Assembly: GCF_004331915.1 (NCBI RefSeq)
Contig: NZ_CP036528.1
Span: forward strand, 944,567-1,008,566
Direction of reading: 5' to 3'
Length of the DNA: 64,000 nt
DNA from: Ureibacillus thermophilus
Lineage (GTDB): Bacteria > Bacillota > Bacilli > Bacillales_A > Planococcaceae
Within the stretch, counting starts at the first letter, position 1. Each line of letters begins with the position of its first letter. The notes below the pieces were generated by a model. The model made no database searches. It saw only the letters and a list, made by a program, of their open reading frames with translations, and was not told the origin of the DNA. The position numbers were made by a program, and so were the translations under genes. This document shows, in pieces, positions 13,064 to 41,679 of the stretch.

Positions 13064-13231
13064 GTACGAAACCTGTTCAATTTAGTTCGTTTTCTTCTTC
13101 CTTTGGTGCGTATATTACCCCAATTAGTGCGTTTGCAACTTTCTTTAGTGCGGATAAGGTACTAATTTGTTCGGATACGGATACCATTAGTGCGAATACC
13201 ATCCCCTTTTGTGCGGATAAAAGGACCATTG
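13064..13231 (-). repeat. 21-bp periodic array, 8 units, inverted copy of the TCCGCAC family
   Basis: The word GTGCG, or its variants GTACG and GTTCG, recurs at 13064, 13085, 13106, 13127, 13148, 13169, 13190 and 13211, exactly 21 bp apart each time. Read on the minus strand the units are ATCCGCAC[T/A]AA followed by variable bases, the same core as the array at 33.03-33.38 kb. It sits between the fadF terminator and the thiolase promoter region. No credible gene is encoded. Confidence 0.8.
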
Positions 13232-30698: not shown

Positions 30699-31976
30699 AT
30701 GTCTCTCACGATTGCTCAATTAGAAAACATGACGTTGAAGGAATTATATAATCTTGCAAGAGAATACAAAATTTCCTACTATAGCAAATTAACAAAAAAA
30801 GAATTAATCTTTGCAATATTGAAATCACGTTCAGAATTAGAAGGCTATTTCTTTATGGAAGGGATTCTCGAAATCGTCAATTCAGAAGGTTTTGGCTTCC
30901 TTCGACCTATCAACTATTCGCCTTCCAAAGAAGACATTTATATTTCAGCTTCGCAAATTCGACGTTTTGACCTTCGAAATGGCGATAAAGTTTCTGGTAA
31001 AGTACGCCCACCAAAAGAAAATGAAAGGTATTATGGATTGCTTCAAGTAGACGCAGTAAACGGAGAAGATCCGGAAATTGCGAAAGAACGCGTTCACTTC
31101 CCAGCTTTAACTCCAATCTATCCTAATCGACAAATCAAACTTGAAACAACACCTGATAAATTATCCACAAGAATTATAGACTTAGTGGCGCCGATTGGGT
31201 TTGGACAACGTGGGTTAATTGTAGCACCGCCTAAAGCAGGTAAAACAACGTTATTAAAAGAAATTGCCAATGCTATCACAACAAATTATCCTCAAGCAGA
31301 ACTCATCGTGTTATTAATTGATGAACGTCCAGAAGAAGTAACGGATATTGAACGTTCCGTGAAAGCCGATGTGGTAAGTTCTACCTTTGATGAAGTGCCT
31401 GAAAATCACGTAAAAGTGGCGGAGTTGGTATTGGAACGCGCCCGACGTCTAGTGGAACATAAACGCGATGTCATTATCTTAATGGATTCCATTACGAGAC
31501 TGGCAAGGGCTTATAACTTAGTCATTCCACCAAGCGGAAGAACTCTATCCGGTGGAATTGACCCAGCGGCATTTCATCGTCCTAAACGATTCTTTGGTTC
31601 GGCTCGAAACATTGAAGAAGGCGGCAGCTTGACGATTTTAGCGACAGCGCTGATCGATACAGGTTCCCGCATGGATGAGGTTATTTATGAAGAATTTAAA
31701 GGAACGGGAAACATGGAGTTACATTTAGACCGCAACTTGGCAGAACGCCGGATTTTCCCAGCATTGGATATTCGCCGTTCTGGTACACGAAAAGAAGAAT
31801 TATTAATTCCGCAAGATCAATTAGAAAAACTTTGGGCAATTCGAAAAACCTTCACTGACGCTCCTGATTTTACAGAACGTTTCTTGAAAAAACTTCGCTC
31901 AACAGAATCCAACGAAGAATTTTTTGAAATCTTAAATGAAGAAATGAAAAAAGTAAAAGGCAAAGGATTGCTTTAA
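30699..31976 (+). CDS. rho: Transcription termination factor Rho
   Basis: A 425-residue hexameric RNA helicase ending untranslated transcripts. It contains the N-terminal helical and cold-shock-like RNA-binding domain (GFGFLRP near residue 66), Walker A PPKAGKTT near 176, Walker [14 protein letters not shown] near 260 and the Q-/R-loop [23 protein letters not shown] precedes ATG 30699. The gene probably has its own promoter in the 63 bp after the glpX terminator, though I see no strong match. Confidence 0.97.
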
Positions 31977-32005
31977 CGCTTCAATGATTTGCTTTATACT
32001 TTAAC

Positions 32006-32034
32006 TTGAATGTTTAAAAATTGTATGTTATTAT
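32006..32034 (+). promoter_or_regulatory. rpmE promoter
   Basis: TTGAAT at 32006-32011 and TATTAT at 32029-32034, 17-bp spacer. Confidence 0.65.
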
Positions 32035-32040
32035 GATTCA

Positions 32041-32147
32041 GTATGTTACGTGTGCATATGTAACTGGCATATTCGGGTTATGTAAGGCACAGTACGAATA
32101 AATAACTCTGTTCCAGAAAAATGGTTCAGGGCGGGAGGTAAACGAAT
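32041..32147 (+). promoter_or_regulatory. rpmE leader, possible L31 autoregulatory RNA
   Basis: About 107 nt of leader with short hairpins: GTTAC (near 32045) with GTAAC (near 32061), and CTGTTCC with GGTTCAG just before the SD. L31 leader motifs have been proposed for Firmicutes, so this may be such an element; I could not align it to a model. Confidence 0.35.
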
Positions 32148-32348
32148 ATGAAACAAGGAATTCATCCAGAATATCATACTGCAACAGTAACATGCTCTTG
32201 CGGTAACACATTCCAAACTGGTTCAGTGAAAAAAGACATTCGCGTTGAGGTTTGCAACGAATGTCATCCATTCTACACTGGCCGTCAAAAATTCGCGACT
32301 GCAGCTGGTCGTGTGGATCGTTTCAACAAAAAATACGGTCTCAAATAA
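32148..32348 (+). CDS. rpmE: Ribosomal protein bL31, zinc-binding type
   Basis: A 66-residue bL31 of the 50S subunit. Four Cys (C16 and C18 in TCSCGN, C37 and C40 in CNECHPF) form a zinc ribbon, so this is the Zn-containing C+ paralogue replaced by YtiA under zinc starvation in B. subtilis. CGGGAGG lies before ATG 32148. It is single-gene, bounded by its own promoter and terminator. Confidence 0.97.
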
Positions 32349-32356
32349 GAAGTATG

Positions 32357-32391
32357 AAATGCCTGCCAACAATCTGGCAGGCATTTTTTTA
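32357..32391 (+). terminator. rpmE terminator
   Basis: AATGCCTGCC (32358-32367) pairs perfectly with GGCAGGCATT (32376-32385), followed by TTTTT. Confidence 0.9.
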
Positions 32392-32433
32392 AGGAAAAGA
32401 ACCAATAATTAATGGCAAAAATGAGGGAGAACA

Positions 32434-33006
32434 ATGGCTCAATTATTTTTTAAATATGGAGCAATGAACAGCGGAAAATCCTTTGAAATTTTGAAAGTTG
32501 CACATAATTATGAAGAGCAAAATAAACCAGTTTTAATGTTTACTTCCGGCATTGATGATCGAGATGAGGTCGGATATGTTTCAAGCCGCATCGGCATGCG
32601 CCGCAAAGCCATTCCTGTTTATGAGGATACGAACATTTTTGAGATCGTGAAAAATTATCCTGAACAATTGTATTGTGTACTAGTGGATGAAGTGCAATTT
32701 TTAAAAAAACATCATGTGCTGCAATTAACGCAAATTGTGGATGCATTGGACATCCCGGTAATGGGGTTTGGATTAAAAAATGATTTTCGAAACGAGCTGT
32801 TTGAAGGAAGCAAATATATGCTTCTCTATTCGGATAAAATTGAAGAAATGAAAACGATTTGCTGGTTCTGCCATAAAAAAGCAACAATGAATTTACGGAT
32901 TGATGAAAACGGAAAACCAGTTTACACCGGAGAACAAATTCAAATCGGCGGAAACGATACATATTATCCCGTTTGCCGAAAATGCCACGCCAATCCTCCT
33001 TTGTGA
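32434..33006 (+). CDS. tdk: Thymidine kinase
   Basis: A 190-residue type II thymidine kinase, phosphorylating thymidine with ATP for nucleotide salvage. P-loop GAMNSGKS lies at residues 9-16, the catalytic Glu in VDEVQFL near 90, and the zinc lasso Cys pairs in CWFCHK near 148 and CRKCHA near 183. The P-loop and N terminus (MAQLFFKYG) resemble the Staphylococcus/Lactobacillus variant more than B. subtilis Tdk. GAGGGAG precedes ATG 32434. The 21-bp repeat array starts 20 bp after the stop. Confidence 0.93.
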
Positions 33007-33026
33007 GAGTATTAGATAGGGGAGAA

Positions 33027-33382
33027 TCTGCACCAATGGGGAAAGCAAAAGCGAGAAATGAAGAAGTATCCGCACTAATTGGATTTGTATCCGCCCGAAA
33101 TGAGGAGGCAACCGCACGAAACGTGGCAGTATCCGCACGAAATGAGGAGACAAACGCCCGAATTGGAGTGGTATCCGCACCAAATGGAGTAGTAAACGCA
33201 CGAAATAGAGCAGTATCCGCCCGAAATGAGGAGGCAACCGCACGAAATAGAGCAGTATCCGCACAAAATGAGGAAGCAAACGCACAAAATGAGGAGGCAA
33301 CCGCACGAAACAATGCAGTATCCGCACTAAATAAGGGAGCAAACGCACAAATGAGGTAGCATCCGCACAAAATAAATTACCA
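33027..33382 (+). repeat. 21-bp tandem array, about 17 units, TCCGCAC core
   Basis: Units start at 33027, 33048, 33069 and then every 21 bp to 33342; the last full unit at 33362 is 1 bp early. The consensus begins [T/A][C/A]CGCAC then GAAATGAGGAGGCA, with frequent one- or two-base changes. As 21 is a multiple of 3, the array is open in several frames; one frame (ATG 33036 to 33359, after AGGGGAG) reads as a 107-residue heptad repeat of the SARNEEA/TARNRAV kind. I treat the array as DNA repeat first because its core recurs inverted at 13.06-13.23 kb. The remainder, 33383-33531, is plain AT-rich spacer with no assignable promoter. Confidence 0.85.
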
Positions 33383-33531
33383 TCCAGACAATTCGAGGGA
33401 AATTTTAGCCCAAGCCCAAACTAAATCAACCAGTAGCACAACCTTTTCATTTTCTTTATACTAATAAAGTCAATGAATTTACGAAACATTAAACCTTTTA
33501 TATAAATCGAACTACAAACGAGGTGAACGTC

Positions 33532-34608
33532 ATGTTTGATAAACTCCAAGCTGTAGAAGAACGCTATGAACGATTAAACGAATTGCTGAGCGATCCTGAA
33601 ATCGTCAACGATGCGAAGAAACTCCGCCAATATTCAAAAGAACAGGCAGATATTCAAGAAACGGTAGAAGTATATCGGGAATACAAAAAAACAAAAGAAG
33701 AATTTGAAGATGCCAAACAAATGCTGGAGGAAAAACTGGATCCAGAAATGCATGAACTCGTAAAAGAAGAGTTCAACACATTAAAAAATAAAATTCAAGA
33801 ACTGGAACAAAAACTAAAAATTCTTCTTCTTCCGAAAGATCCTAACGACGACAAAAACGTAATCATGGAAATTCGCGGTGCAGCAGGTGGGGATGAAGCC
33901 AATATTTTCGCAGGTGACCTATTCCGCATGTATACGCGCTATGCAGAATCGCAAGGATGGAAAGTGGAAGTATTGGAAGCTTCTCCAAGCTCCAGCGGCG
34001 GATACAAAGAAATTATTTTCATGATCAACGGCAATGGCGCTTATTCTAAATTCAAATTCGAAAACGGAGCTCACCGCGTACAACGGGTGCCGCAAACTGA
34101 ATCCCAAGGGCGCATCCACACATCCACAGCGACAGTGGCTGTTCTTCCAGAAGTGGAAGAAGTAGAAATCGAAATTAATGAAAAAGATATCCGCGTTGAT
34201 ACTTTCGCTGCATCCGGAGCCGGTGGACAACACGTTAATACGACCATGTCTGCTGTCCGCATGACCCATATTCCAACGGGGATTGTCGTGTCCATGCAAG
34301 ATGAACGTTCCCAAATTAAAAACCGCGAAAAAGCATTAAGAGTCCTTCGTGCGCGTGTGGCGGACCACTACAACCGCGAAAAGCAAAAAGAATTGGATGC
34401 TGCAAGAAAATCTGCTGTTGGTACAGGAGACCGTTCAGAGCGCATCCGCACCTACAACTATCCGCAAAACCGCGTCACTGACCATCGAATCGGCTTAACG
34501 ATTCAAAAACTGGACCAAGTCATGGAAGGGAAGCTTGATGAAATCATCGACGCACTTATCATGGAAGATCAAGCTTCCAAATTGGCGAGATTAAATGAAG
34601 AAGCATAA
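33532..34608 (+). CDS. prfA: Peptide chain release factor 1
   Basis: A 358-residue RF1, reading UAA and UAG. The codon-recognition tripeptide region is [14 protein letters not shown] near 185, and the catalytic GGQ lies in [11 protein letters not shown] near 233. I chose ATG 33532 because AGGTG is 7 nt upstream and B. subtilis PrfA begins at the matching residue; a GTG three codons earlier is possible. The last 14 nt overlap prmC, whose product methylates the GGQ glutamine, so the enzyme and its substrate are co-translated. Confidence 0.96.
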
Positions 34609-35458
34609 TACAGTGGTGGAGGCCCTCAATTGGGCTTCTTCTTTTTTAACGGAACATGGTCGTGACGCCAATGCAGCAAGAATTTTAATGCAGCATCTTT
34701 ACAAAACAAACTATACAGGGTTGATGATGCACATTCATGAAGAAATGCCGGAAGAGAAGCGACTCACCTTTCAACAAATGGTAGAGGAACATGCAAAAGG
34801 CAGGCCAGTCCAGTACATTACAGGGACTGAAGAATTTTATGGAAGAACCTTTATGGTGGATGAATCCGTCCTCATTCCTCGCCCGGAAACAGAAGAATTA
34901 ATTCTTGGCGCAATGACAAGAATGAAGAAATGGTTTGGTGAAAAGAAAGAGTTAAAACTCGCCGATATCGGTACAGGAAGTGGCATTATTGGGATTACGA
35001 TGAAGCTGGAATGGCCAAATGCAAAAGTGGTGGCAACGGATATTTCGGAAGCGGCACTCAACATGGCAAAACGAAATGCAGAACATTTGCATGCAGACAT
35101 CGATTTTCGATTAGGGGATTTAACAGATCCGATTGCAAATGAAAAATGGGATGTCATTTTATCCAATCCTCCCTATATCGCCCATCATGAGGCAAAAGAA
35201 ATGTCTGATGTCGTGTTGGAACATGAACCCCATCTTGCCCTATTTGCAGAAGATGACGGATTGCAATGTTATAAACGATTGGCTCAAACTTTGCCTAACC
35301 TATTAAATCAGCCTGCGCTGATTGGCGTAGAAATCGGCTACAATCAAGGGGAAGCAGTGGCAGAACTGTTCAAATCAAGCTTTCCACAAGCGCAAATTGA
35401 AATAGTGAAAGATATAAATCAAAAAAATAGATTTGTTTTTTGTATAATCGATGTATAA
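34595..35458 (+). CDS. prmC: Release factor glutamine methyltransferase
   Basis: A 287-residue SAM-dependent methyltransferase that N5-methylates the glutamine of the GGQ motif in release factors. It has an N-terminal helical domain, then the SAM motif [10 protein letters not shown] near 126 and the substrate motif NPPYI near 191. The RPETEEL motif lies near 94. It overlaps prfA by 14 nt. Length and layout match the HemK/PrmC family. Confidence 0.95.
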
Positions 35459-35463
35459 AAATT

Positions 35464-35496
35464 TCCCTGCCTGTCCATGATGATGACAGGGAGGGA
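35464..35496 (+). promoter_or_regulatory. Hairpin sequestering the spoIIR ribosome-binding site
   Basis: TCCCTGCCTGTC (35464-35475) pairs with GACAGGGAGGGA (35485-35496) with a single C-C-type mismatch and a 9-nt loop. The 3' arm contains the spoIIR SD GGGAGGG (35489-35495). There is no T run, so translation rather than transcription is the likely target. Confidence 0.65.
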
Positions 35497-35502
35497 AATA
35501 CA

Positions 35503-36099
35503 ATGTTAAATGATTACGAGATTATGAGAAACGAAAAAGACCGAATTCATCCAATCATCAGCATTCTTAAATTGATTGCATCCGCTCTTGCAGTATATTG
35601 TTTTCTACTAATGGTTCCAGATTTAGTTGATCAAATCTATGAAGCTCGGGAAAAGATGGTAGATGATTCTTTAAAAATCCGTGTCATTGCAAACAGCAAC
35701 ACAAAAGCCGATCAAGCGTTCAAAAATGAAATGGTGGCTAGCCTTGAACCGATTTTCTCAGAAATTCAGTACAATGAAATCCATCAAGAAGAAAATGATG
35801 AAGCCTTTGCCAAATTGGCCACTTATATTGGGCAGCACTATTCTGATCGTGATGTGAAAATCAATATCGGCGAACATTTAATGCCGCCAAAATGGGATGG
35901 ACACACTTTCTATCCACAAGCTTATTACCATTCGTTAGTGTTGACAATTGGCGCAGGGCGTGGGGATAACTTCTGGTGCAGCATTTTTTCCAATTTATGT
36001 GAACGTCCGAGCGACAAAAACAAAGAGAAAACGGAAAAAGAAGAGAAAGAAGAAGTGCGGTTTATCGTGTGGGAATGGTTGAAAAAATGGTTTAGTTAA
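35503..36099 (+). CDS. spoIIR: Stage II sporulation protein R
   Basis: A 198-residue forespore signalling protein which, in B. subtilis, crosses to the intermembrane space and triggers SpoIIGA processing of pro-sigma-E. One N-terminal membrane segment (about residues 20-41) precedes the conserved domain with LKIRVIANSN and the aromatic C-terminal tail WEWLKKWF. I chose ATG 35503, 7 nt after GGGAGGG; the open frame extends 21 codons upstream into prmC without an SD. The SD is buried in a hairpin. Confidence 0.92.
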   Translation: MLNDYEIMRNEKDRIHPIISILKLIASALAVYCFLLMVPDLVDQIYEAREKMVDDSLKIRVIANSNTKADQAFKNEMVASLEPIFSEIQYNEIHQEENDEAFAKLATYIGQHYSDRDVKINIGEHLMPPKWDGHTFYPQAYYHSLVLTIGAGRGDNFWCSIFSNLCERPSDKNKEKTEKEEKEEVRFIVWEWLKKWFS

Positions 36100-36101
36100 A
36101 G

Positions 36102-36315
36102 TTATCCACTGAAATGGGTACCCATTCGAGTAAATTCTACAAATTTTCCACTATATTCAGAAAAGTTATACACATTTTGCACAAAATTATCCACAAAATG
36201 TGGATAATATTTCAGAAATTCAGTTTTATCAGGAGATGACATACATGAAAACAGTCCTACTTACTGTGGATAAAAAAGTGGATAAAGAAAAAATTTATGC
36301 ACAAGCTGTGGATAT
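36102..36315. promoter_or_regulatory. DnaA-box cluster at ywlC
   Basis: Exact 9-mers TTATCCACA (36187-36195) and, inverted, TGTGGATAA at 36199-36207 and 36265-36273. One-mismatch or consensus forms are TTATCCACT (36102-36110), TTATACACA (36166-36174), AGTGGATAA (36277-36285) and TGTGGATAT (36307-36315). That is seven boxes in 214 bp, spanning the promoter region and first codons of ywlC. B. subtilis has a DnaA-box cluster at the same gene. Confidence 0.85.
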
Positions 36316-37291
36316 TTTAAATCAAGGGGAAGTTGTTGCTTTTCCAACTGAAACGGTGTACGGATTAGGAGCAGTAGCAACAAACGAAGAAGCGGTAAAG
36401 AAAATATATAAAGCAAAGGGACGTCCTTCTGATAATCCTCTCATTGTACATATTGGAACGATGGAAGAAGTTCCGAATTATGTGGAAGAAATTCCAGAAA
36501 ATGCGAAAAAATTAATGGAACGCTTTTGGCCAGGTCCCTTGACGCTCATTATGAAAGCCAAAAGGGGAGTGCTTGCAACAAGCGTCACAGCAGGTTTATC
36601 AACAGTAGGGATTCGCATGCCGGACCATGAAGTGGCGCTTGAGCTTTTAAGGGCATTGAAAAAACCGCTTGCAGCTCCCAGCGCCAATCGAAGCGGGAAG
36701 CCAAGCCCCACAAAAGCAGCCCACGTATATGAAGATTTAAAAGGACGCATTCCTTTAATATTGGATGGCGGAACAACTGGGATTGGCATCGAATCGACGG
36801 TTTTGGATGTGACGGTAAATCCCCCGGTGATTTTGCGTCCGGGCGGCATTACTAAAGAAATGTTGGAAGACGAAATCGGCGAAGTGTTGGAACCGACGCC
36901 GAAAGAACAAGAGCTGGAATCCACTCCGAAAGCCCCGGGCATGAAATACACCCATTATGCTCCAGAAGCGCCGGTGTATTTAATTGAAAAAAATCATGAG
37001 AAAATCAAACAGACAATCGCCAAGTTGAAAAAGGAAGGCCATCGGGTTGCGCTGCTTGCCCCGTCCAATTATTCTGCAACATCCGCAGATTACTTTTTCC
37101 CCTTTGGCGATGAAGAAGATCAAAAGCAAATGGCTGCCAAACTATATGATTCACTCCGCGCATGCGACAAAACCGATGCTACCATTATTTTAGCTACAAC
37201 CACTTCTTCAGAAGGCGTCGGCGCAGCAATAATGAATCGTCTTTTTAAAGCGGCAGGAGGGAAATTTATAGAAGTGCCAGGTACTGAATAG
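36245..37291 (+). CDS. ywlC: Threonylcarbamoyl-AMP synthase (Sua5/YwlC)
   Basis: A 348-residue two-domain enzyme. It forms threonylcarbamoyl-AMP from threonine, bicarbonate and ATP, the first step of the t6A37 tRNA modification. The YrdC domain (residues about 15-205) contains FPTETVYGLGA near 31 and KGRPSDNPL near 56; the C-terminal Sua5 domain follows PGMKYTHYAP near 235. I chose ATG 36245 with AGGAG 9 nt upstream. Several DnaA boxes fall inside its first codons. Confidence 0.94.
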   Translation: MKTVLLTVDKKVDKEKIYAQAVDILNQGEVVAFPTETVYGLGAVATNEEAVKKIYKAKGRPSDNPLIVHIGTMEEVPNYVEEIPENAKKLMERFWPGPLTLIMKAKRGVLATSVTAGLSTVGIRMPDHEVALELLRALKKPLAAPSANRSGKPSPTKAAHVYEDLKGRIPLILDGGTTGIGIESTVLDVTVNPPVILRPGGITKEMLEDEIGEVLEPTPKEQELESTPKAPGMKYTHYAPEAPVYLIEKNHEKIKQTIAKLKKEGHRVALLAPSNYSATSADYFFPFGDEEDQKQMAAKLYDSLRACDKTDATIILATTTSSEGVGAAIMNRLFKAAGGKFIEVPGTE

Positions 37292-40173: not shown

Positions 40174-41679
40174 TTATTCGGTAATTTTAAACATTGCACG
40201 GATGGCAGGAATGCCTGTGCCCGGGTGATCATCTCGATACGTTAACATGGGTCTTAAATAATAAGTCGGTTGGATTTGTTGACCTTTATAAATGGAAGGA
40301 TATATATCAATGAATTGGTAACCCGGTTCGCCTGTTGCTTTTAATTTTAGATGGATCATTCCTTGGCTGTTGAAACCGCAAATGTATCCGATATAGCTGT
40401 TATTGTATAAAACAGCCAATGCGTTATCGAATTCTGTCCATCCCGAACCTTTAATAGTAATGACAAATTCTGTGCCCACTGGTCCGGATGAAGGCGAAAT
40501 AGATACAATCGAAGGCAAAATTCTTAAATACGTTTGCCCATAAACTTCATCTCCCACTTTTACATCGATTAAGTGAGGAAGCCCGCCTAAATCATCTGGA
40601 ATAGCAAACTCATAAACTAAGTTTCCATTGTCATCTGTTGTTGCTTCACCCAAATCGAAAACCTCTGGCCCATATCCTTCCGCAGTGACGCGTGTGCCGA
40701 CCATTGTATGCCAATCGAAAGTTACTTTTTCGTTTTTCGGTAAACCGGAAGCTGTTAATACAACTTTTTCGCCGACAGTGCCTTCTGAACGGTCAAGAGT
40801 TACGGTTACGCCATCTTTATTTTGCGGTTCTGGCATCTTAATTCCGCCGCCTGCTGGTTCAGGAGCTTCTTCCACATAAGACGCCGTTGTGACAGGCTCA
40901 TCGGAAGTGATTTCGAATGTAAAATAATGGGTATCGATGTAGTTAATTGCGGAGCTGCTTCGGCTTAAGTATGGGAATCCCATAGCACCACTTTCAACAG
41001 TAATGCTGTGAAGTCCTTTTTTTCCTACTGCACGGAATACGGCTTCTGCTTTACCGTTTGTTGTAATCGCTGTAATCATACCTGTGTATTTATTATCCCA
41101 GTTGACATGCCATAAACTACCAAACATTTTCCAGCTTAACCCTTCACCCTTGACAGTGACTTCTGTTCCAGGAGGGCCGGATGTTGGACTCATCGTAAAC
41201 ACGGTTTCTACAAAGAAGTTGGCTTTTGCGACCACTTCATCTTCCTGATAAATCAGAATATCGTGGTCATCCCCAAAGCCATCTGGAATGGAAAAGGTTC
41301 CTTCCCATTTTCCGTCTCCGTCAGCTGTGCCTTCAGCAACCACTTTTTCCACTGGTTTAAAAGCTGTACCGATGAAAGAATAATTATCTTCTATTTGGTA
41401 AGAACCGATCATGTCGACCCAAACAACTTTTAATGGTTGATTCGGCTTTAAAGAATCTAAAGTTATAGTCACTTCATCGCCAATCCGTCCGCTGCTTTTA
41501 CTTAGCGAAACATTGCCGATTAAATTCATTTGTTTTTCTTCTGAATTTTTTTCAGTAGTGTCTTCTGTATTTTTAGTATTTTCTTCAGTCTTTTCAGATT
41601 CTTGGCTAGAATCCGTACATCCTGCTATGAAGATTGCGGCAAAAAGTAGGAAGGTCATGAGGCGTAGGCGATGGATCAT
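40174..41679 (-). CDS. Lipoprotein with two duplicated Ig/TIG-like modules
   Basis: A 501-residue lipoprotein (lipobox IAGC, Cys21) with an acidic linker to about residue 50. The rest is an internal duplication: residues about 57-232 and 291-463 repeat the order VG[D/E]xV...W..M[I/V]G...IPD..G..H...SP[T/S]SGPxGTE...KGxG (SP at 164 and 395). The modules look like immunoglobulin/IPT-TIG beta sandwiches, joined by a Pro/Glu-rich linker (262-288). No catalytic motif is seen. It starts inside the stop of the upstream lipoprotein gene (4-nt overlap). A cell-surface binding or scaffold role is a guess. Confidence 0.8.
   Translation of the reverse strand: MIHRLRLMTFLLFAAIFIAGCTDSSQESEKTEENTKNTEDTTEKNSEEKQMNLIGNVSLSKSSGRIGDEVTITLDSLKPNQPLKVVWVDMIGSYQIEDNYSFIGTAFKPVEKVVAEGTADGDGKWEGTFSIPDGFGDDHDILIYQEDEVVAKANFFVETVFTMSPTSGPPGTEVTVKGEGLSWKMFGSLWHVNWDNKYTGMITAITTNGKAEAVFRAVGKKGLHSITVESGAMGFPYLSRSSSAINYIDTHYFTFEITSDEPVTTASYVEEAPEPAGGGIKMPEPQNKDGVTVTLDRSEGTVGEKVVLTASGLPKNEKVTFDWHTMVGTRVTAEGYGPEVFDLGEATTDDNGNLVYEFAIPDDLGGLPHLIDVKVGDEVYGQTYLRILPSIVSISPSSGPVGTEFVITIKGSGWTEFDNALAVLYNNSYIGYICGFNSQGMIHLKLKATGEPGYQFIDIYPSIYKGQQIQPTYYLRPMLTYRDDHPGTGIPAIRAMFKITE

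Follow-up and report, generated by a model that had tools for sequence, protein, structure and literature searches.

Intergenic 21-bp repeat arrays of Ureibacillus thermophilus and its relatives keep a two-turn spacing that suggests phased protein sites

The 17-unit array located between tdk and prfA in Ureibacillus thermophilus belongs to a family of intergenic arrays in which the spacing, the core within a lineage and the orthologous positions are conserved. These arrays are best explained as phased protein sites, one per two helical turns and all facing one side of the DNA, a reading to which we give a probability of about 0.53. The spacing kept despite sequence drift hints that something grips one DNA face, and we infer a protein, its binding to that face and a contribution to the architecture of the nucleoid or of gene boundaries. 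The array is a member of a published class of constant-length 20-21 nt repeats (PMC8161180). All positions refer to the window, the whole stretch of 64,000 nucleotides that was analyzed; G and L numbers denote genomes and fetched sequence stretches, G000 being the genome of the window.

Direct reading of the sequence placed the unit starts at 33027, 33048, 33069 and onward to 33342, with 15 consecutive steps of exactly 21 bp followed by one 20-bp unit, and the last unit at 33362-33382. The 17-unit array between tdk and prfA described in the first-pass annotation was thereby borne out (units 33027-33382, flanking domains matched). Its exact 21-bp spacing from 33027 to 33342 holds for the 15 steps and is departed from in the final one, and its statement that every CCGCAC core faces one side is too strong in the word "every": the exact core occurs nine times and CGC[AC]C 15 times, units 1 and 2 being degenerate. 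TCC-starting units often alternate with AAC- or ACC-starting units, which produces a 42-bp higher order. Self-identity of the array was 0.612 at lag 21, 0.662 at lag 42 and 0.666 at lag 63, while in 1000 dinucleotide-preserving shuffles it stayed at or below 0.395 at every lag from 5 to 89. Tandem Repeats Finder reported periods of 21, 42, 63 and 41.

Table 1. Features of the window and of core-blind loci in related genomes
Feature	Position	Strand	Description or basis
Array, 17 units of about 21 bp	33027..33382	+	consensus (T/A)(C/A)CGCACNAA(A/T)...
Lone 20-bp unit, sole exception to the 21-bp step	33342..33361	+	sequence reading
Degenerate half unit TCCAGACAATTCGAGGG at 3' edge of array	33383..33399	+	sequence reading
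Thymidine kinase gene, 5' of array	32434..33006 (stop at 33006)	+	Pfam TK, 1e-46
prfA, peptide chain release factor 1	33532..34608	+	PCRF and RF-1 domains
Promoter-like block CATTTTCTTTATACTAATAAAGTC with TATACT, before prfA	33448..33471	+	cross-genome comparison
Second array, same family	13092..13217	-	five core words, separated three times by 21 and once by 42
Core-blind array 3' of DUF3426-like gene, G007	L286		TTGGCTAATA
Core-blind array 3' of DUF3426-like gene, G006	L293		TTGCGA
Core-blind array 3' of DUF3426-like gene, G017	L288		TAATAGAA

The tabulated prfA start is an ATG; the ORF listing gives GTG at 33523. The block preceding prfA is identical in G021, G015, G022 and G009, with the array upstream of it in each (a short remnant in G009). 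It may be the prfA promoter and is not one of the two promoter-like sites otherwise called. The second window array is more degenerate than the first, has the opposite orientation, and is followed by an ORF that we take to be thiolase-like. A short 21-bp tandem repeat without the CGCAC core (TTTTCAGTAGTGTCTTCAGTA), possibly coding, was seen at 41549-41597.

The first-pass annotation had proposed searching the whole genome and related Planococcaceae for core words at 21-bp spacing, and recurrent arrays were found in both. In G000, TCCGCACNAA occurs 349 times (150 forward, 199 reverse) against 18 for the backward control (12 and 6). A pattern of two cores within the allowed gap matched 82 times, 81 of them with a 21-bp spacing and one with 20 bp, with none for the control; a two-core pattern matched once in G017. 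Among 398 sampled genomes of the class, a three-core pattern matched in G000 (406 times) and G021 (144 times) but in none of the other 396. At least 29 arrays with at least three core words each are present in the fetched stretches of G000, and arrays reach 63 core words. Sixteen of the 29 lie on the plus strand and 13 on the minus strand, interleaved, which led us to reject a polar segregation motif and makes a polar role for the segregation protein offered in the first-pass annotation unlikely. Taking G000, G021 and stretch L044 together, 578 of 697 core spacings were 21 bp and 683 were multiples of 21.

The bases of the unit are not conserved alike. Core identity in G021 was 0.95 within and 0.94 between arrays, and in G000 0.98 and 0.97, values that are inflated because the units were located via the core, as they also were in the TATCCGCCA and orthologue comparisons below. 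Spacer identity in G021 was 0.57 within and 0.38 between arrays (0.28 from composition), and in G000 0.61 and 0.55 (0.34 from composition); that the between-array value of G021 exceeds composition is counted against the phased-site reading. At position 8 of the G021 unit, a free base, identity dropped from 0.69 within to 0.26 between arrays. Positions 11, 20 and 21, which lie outside the search pattern, carry 1.08 to 1.96 bits. Among 117 in-register units not detected via the core, C7 was present in 116, A9 in 115 and A10 in 116, and position 8 was spread over four bases. A core held throughout a lineage with filler specific to each locus points to recognition in trans.

Relatives carry arrays as well. 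Pairs of TATCCGC 12-42 bp apart numbered 212 in 23 genomes of the genus against 7 for the backward control, with at least one pair in 20 of the 23. Among the 150 listed of these 212 pairs, 54 of the 85 in the 12-31 bp range were at 21, 16 at 20 and six at 19, and 58 of the 65 in the 32-42 bp range were at 40-42. In our reading of the match listing, other array cores of the relatives are TATCCGCAC, TATCCGCTC, TATCCGCCC and TATCCGCCA. GCGG is common to many array cores; Chi in B. subtilis is AGCGG.

The 37 arrays of TATCCGCCA type, from nine genomes, contain two to six units each (five units in 15 of them). Of their 110 spacings, 98 were 21 bp and nine 20 bp, with one each of 22, 19 and 13, so that unit length does not vary freely. 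Spacer identity was 0.376 within arrays, 0.379 between arrays and 0.386 from composition, and 286 of 500 permutations reached the within-array value. A 21-bp spacing with such chance-like spacers is therefore not a by-product of recent duplication, and the arrays are not solely recent perfect duplications. Stretches L207 and L209 entered only this spacing and spacer comparison; other core types (L259, L262, L273, L277-L279) were excluded from the counts of spacing, context, 10.5-bp signal and terminators. For the spacing, context and terminator counts, a gap of more than 30 bp ended a chain, and the 10.5-bp profile used exact-21 runs only. Long homogenized arrays also exist in relatives (eight 42-bp repeats in G020 and one near-identical 20-bp array in G007), and they are counted against the phased-site reading.

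Across 121 genomes of the family, 82 had at least one TATCCGC pair, many with one or two, near control level, and the pairs were clearly enriched in several other genera. In G423, from a second genus, arrays of 4-5 units were present in six of seven stretches (L357 has no chain of three); all 21 spacings were 21 bp and the spacers were unrelated (0.411 within, 0.388 between; 115 of 500 permutations). In G352, from a third genus (g27), 33 of 35 spacings in six stretches were 20 bp, and spacers were 0.804 alike within and 0.740 between arrays, an excess that is expected from duplication and was reached by 0 of 500 permutations. The G352 arrays (L348-L353) have mostly TATCCGCG and TATCCGCT cores. 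The matches listed in a wider contig scan were mostly chance-like; the two inspected, arrays of CGCACCAA words in Oceanobacillus halophilus (L044, 1-260) and Ornithinibacillus caprae (L060, 4780-5070), both look real, with steps of both 20 and 21 bp in L060. Departures from 21 bp are thus mostly to 20, with one genus at 20 and 18-bp steps in G006 and G017.

Arrays recur at orthologous sites, and orthologous arrays are not independent of one another. At the prfA site, compared in 25 genomes, arrays were found in G000, G021, G015 and G022, on the opposite strand in G011 and G013, and as a remnant in G009. Between the promoter-like block and prfA, TATCCGCC words occur in four genomes, as arrays in G003 and G023 and as two words in G007 and G017. 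No array was detected at this site in 14 of the 25 genomes, and arrays are therefore dispensable there. Downstream (3') of a glycosyl-transferase-4 gene, arrays are present in G000, G021, G015, G003, G020, G002, G011 and G013, and none was seen in 16 genomes, for most of which 420-520 bases were viewed (G009 not counted). At a NERD-domain gene, five units each occur in G003, G014 and G423, the last from another genus, with pairwise identities of 0.91-0.96 in the core and 0.42-0.55 in the spacer. Over all ten pairs of five genomes, which add G023 (three units) and G010 (four units, register less sure), the ranges were 0.86-1.00 and 0.30-0.67. The last array unit can overlap the end of the NERD-domain gene, which is counted against the phased-site reading.

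A further site lies 3' of a DUF3426-like gene, whose domain match is below the Pfam cut-off. Arrays were found there in G005, G014 and G004 (core 0.89-0.93, spacer 0.49-0.79) and in G021 (part of 22 loci tallied); none was seen in the bases viewed for G000, G008 and G019. In three stretches picked by the neighboring gene, blind to any core, the best lag was 21 in each (G006, G007 and G017; Table 1). The G007 array has four steps of 21, and those of G006 and G017 are mostly 21 with some of 18. These arrays share the lag with different cores, and the period is therefore more constant than the core. The G006 array also indicates that genomes free of TATCCGC need not be free of arrays. Two unlike cores can occur in one genome, as in G007 with TATCCGCCA and, at another site, TTGGCTAATA, and this weighs against a single sequence-specific reader. 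In G006 and G019 (L330 after 2550; L320 after 2568), a GGTGCCAGG-type repeat with AATTC words occupies the place where others have arrays. The selection on two-turn spacing proposed in the first-pass annotation is thus supported: spacing is kept where spacers have lost resemblance, at orthologous sites, and where no core guided the search.

The AT/GC profile of the units agrees with the helical geometry. The 10.5-bp power share was 0.494 in 28 TATCCGCCA arrays (maximum 0.143 after permuting positions) and 0.278 in 37 CGCACNAA arrays (maximum 0.139), signals to which the fixed core contributes; the block test used blocks picked after the profile was seen. This alternation fits DNA bent or wrapped towards the inferred protein. 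The arrays would then form a row of sites, one per two turns on the same face of the double helix, successively occupied by a candidate trans-acting protein, or by a few such proteins as the cores differ, which might bend, wrap or coat the intergenic DNA. Selection would maintain the phase of two turns, and also the core inside each lineage, and leave the spacers freer except for the AT/GC alternation. In U. thermophilus and some relatives, unequal exchange or slippage may also multiply and homogenize the units locally. We consider doubtful a wider version, a family-wide chromatin-like system in which fast-evolving, sequence-specific proteins would recognize a core every two turns on a single DNA face, and small groups of sites, or in some species dozens, would serve as inherited boundary or nucleation points at gene ends, the same sites persisting across genera as their cores turn over.

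DNA gyrase or another wrapping protein might use the 10.5-bp alternation with no dedicated reader and make the arrays supercoil sinks at gene ends. E. coli BIME elements may likewise serve as supercoil sinks. This explanation, which partly overlaps the phased-site reading, appears unlikely. It would accommodate the alternation itself and unrelated cores at the same period, and the gene context agrees with it: among classified arrays, tandem genes flank 15 of 25 TATCCGCCA and 15 of 22 CGCACNAA arrays, convergent genes seven and five, and divergent genes only three and two (genes being our ORF picks, with 7 TATCCGCCA and 19 CGCACNAA rows unclassifiable). Terminators facing the array within 90 bp were found on the core-3' side of 8/38 and 12/41 arrays of the two types and on the core-5' side of five and four. 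The resulting 20 versus 9 is a modest polarity, and three arrays of a single stretch, counted in pieces, account for eight of the 41 rows. Such terminators are commoner than at random positions (1-3 percent), but that contrast is inflated because random positions are mostly coding. The core, moreover, is nearly invariant within a lineage, beyond what a bending signal needs, and CGCACNAA arrays have the lower 10.5-bp share. Between tandem genes, 13 of 15 TATCCGCCA arrays have the core antisense and 11 of 15 CGCACNAA arrays have it sense; that the two types are oriented oppositely is counted against the phased-site reading.

A neutral minisatellite, in which slippage and gene conversion create, spread and homogenize 21-bp units and the period and core are merely inherited, seems quite unlikely as a full account. 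The long G000 arrays with their similar spacers, the 42- and 63-bp higher order of the window array, the variation of copy number at prfA between species and the duplicated spacers of G352 are all as it predicts. Arrays of six units or fewer with chance-level spacer identity nevertheless hold 21 bp, and nearly all core spacings in G000, G021 and the Oceanobacillus stretch are multiples of 21.

Subirana and Messeguer offered the alternative that such repeats are transcribed and that the RNA, a sponge or small RNA, is the active form. For B. coagulans, transcription of 52-nt repeats has been reported (PMC8161180, PMC8625621), and the TATCCGCC words between the promoter-like block and prfA are in a suitable place. 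Against shuffles, however, the window array showed no stable fold (z +1.76 and +1.04), which leaves the phased RNA structure suggested in the first-pass annotation unsupported, and no Rfam covariance model matched window positions 31500-36500. The core strand also flips relative to prfA between G000 and both G011 and G013, and a single-stranded RNA would presumably need no exact two-turn step. We therefore regard this explanation as improbable.

Titration of DnaA by clustered DnaA boxes is very improbable. TATCCGC is one base off TATCCAC, four exact TTATNCACA words overlap array units at the prfA site of G022 (L193, 1113-1266), and the differing base is A in 19 of the 284 in-register units of G021 and three of the 507 of G000. 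That base is nevertheless G in 264 of the G021 and 502 of the G000 units; among the 117 units not detected via the core, it is G in 92. No TTATNCACA was found inside G000 or G021 arrays in the 25 sources scanned (window, L193, 19 G000 stretches and four of five G021 stretches), and G000 retains TTATNCACA words of the ordinary kind elsewhere in the window, near 36.2 kb. There, TTATNCACA and related words, two of them likewise 21 bp apart, are grouped on both strands (36166-36303) at the start of ORF 36200-37291, presumably ywlC-like, and the group resembles a DnaA-box cluster as in B. subtilis.

A coding heptapeptide repeat is hardly credible: 21 is divisible by three (seven codons) and a plus-strand frame is open over 128 codons, but in the core it is the second base of a codon (CNA) that varies most, third positions are no less conserved (about 1.33 versus 1.27 bits, from G000 values), the 20-bp unit disrupts the frame and the spacers of other arrays are unrelated. 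ORFs across arrays (13 of 41 CGCACNAA rows and two of 32 TATCCGCCA rows) were taken as mechanical. A plasmid or phage origin was rejected, the window array matching nothing in plasmid and phage collections.

Bacterial repeats of the constant-length class pose a puzzle, the length being kept and the sequence not. Short arrays with unrelated spacers and exact two-turn spacing, some of them orthologous, allow selection to be separated from slippage. They also offer a compact bait (five sites in 105 bp) and a clean control, a half-turn-shifted spacing, with which the question whether a protein binds can be put to a direct test.

Several known systems resemble the arrays in part. The iterons of plasmid origins, like the array units, repeat directly with a unit length near two helical turns, but the arrays are chromosomal and occupy tens of loci, and the window array has no plasmid match. 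REP and BIME elements are dispersed, intergenic and often at gene ends, as the arrays are, but they are palindromic, whereas the window array forms no stable fold or hairpin. DnaA-box clusters share short asymmetric words in intergenic clusters, the letters TATCC and the overlap in the G022 array; they differ in having TCCAC where the array core has TCCGC, and scanned G000 and G021 arrays lack TTATNCACA. In the open-access literature, no paper on the window array or its motif was found apart from PMC8161180 and, by the same authors, PMC6749651 and PMC8625621. The statement of the first-pass annotation that no function is described still holds, but the repeat class is already in print. Non-coding tandem repeats of constant length (20-21 nt) and variable sequence, with at least four repeats per array, were reported from 176 Bacillus genomes, with many families per genome and species-specific sequences that include a short conserved word such as TCGCGG in B. 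weihaiensis; the two-turn unit length was noted, and a nucleoid protein or small RNA was proposed, no function being known (Subirana and Messeguer, 2021; PMC8161180). The window family agrees in its unit length, which stays at 20-21 nt from locus to locus and from species to species (with some 18- and 19-bp steps), in being intergenic and non-coding without a third-position excess of variation, and in its species-specific sequence, several families per genome and shared short word. The main text of PMC8161180 has no mention of "orthologous", "spacer" or "Planococcaceae", and the evidence for phase selection was not found in the text consulted from the three papers. Unlike the repeats as that source describes them, the present arrays have spacers that show no sign of duplication, orthologous positions across species and two genera, a TATCCGC word shared by several genera of the family, and a 10.5-bp AT/GC alternation.
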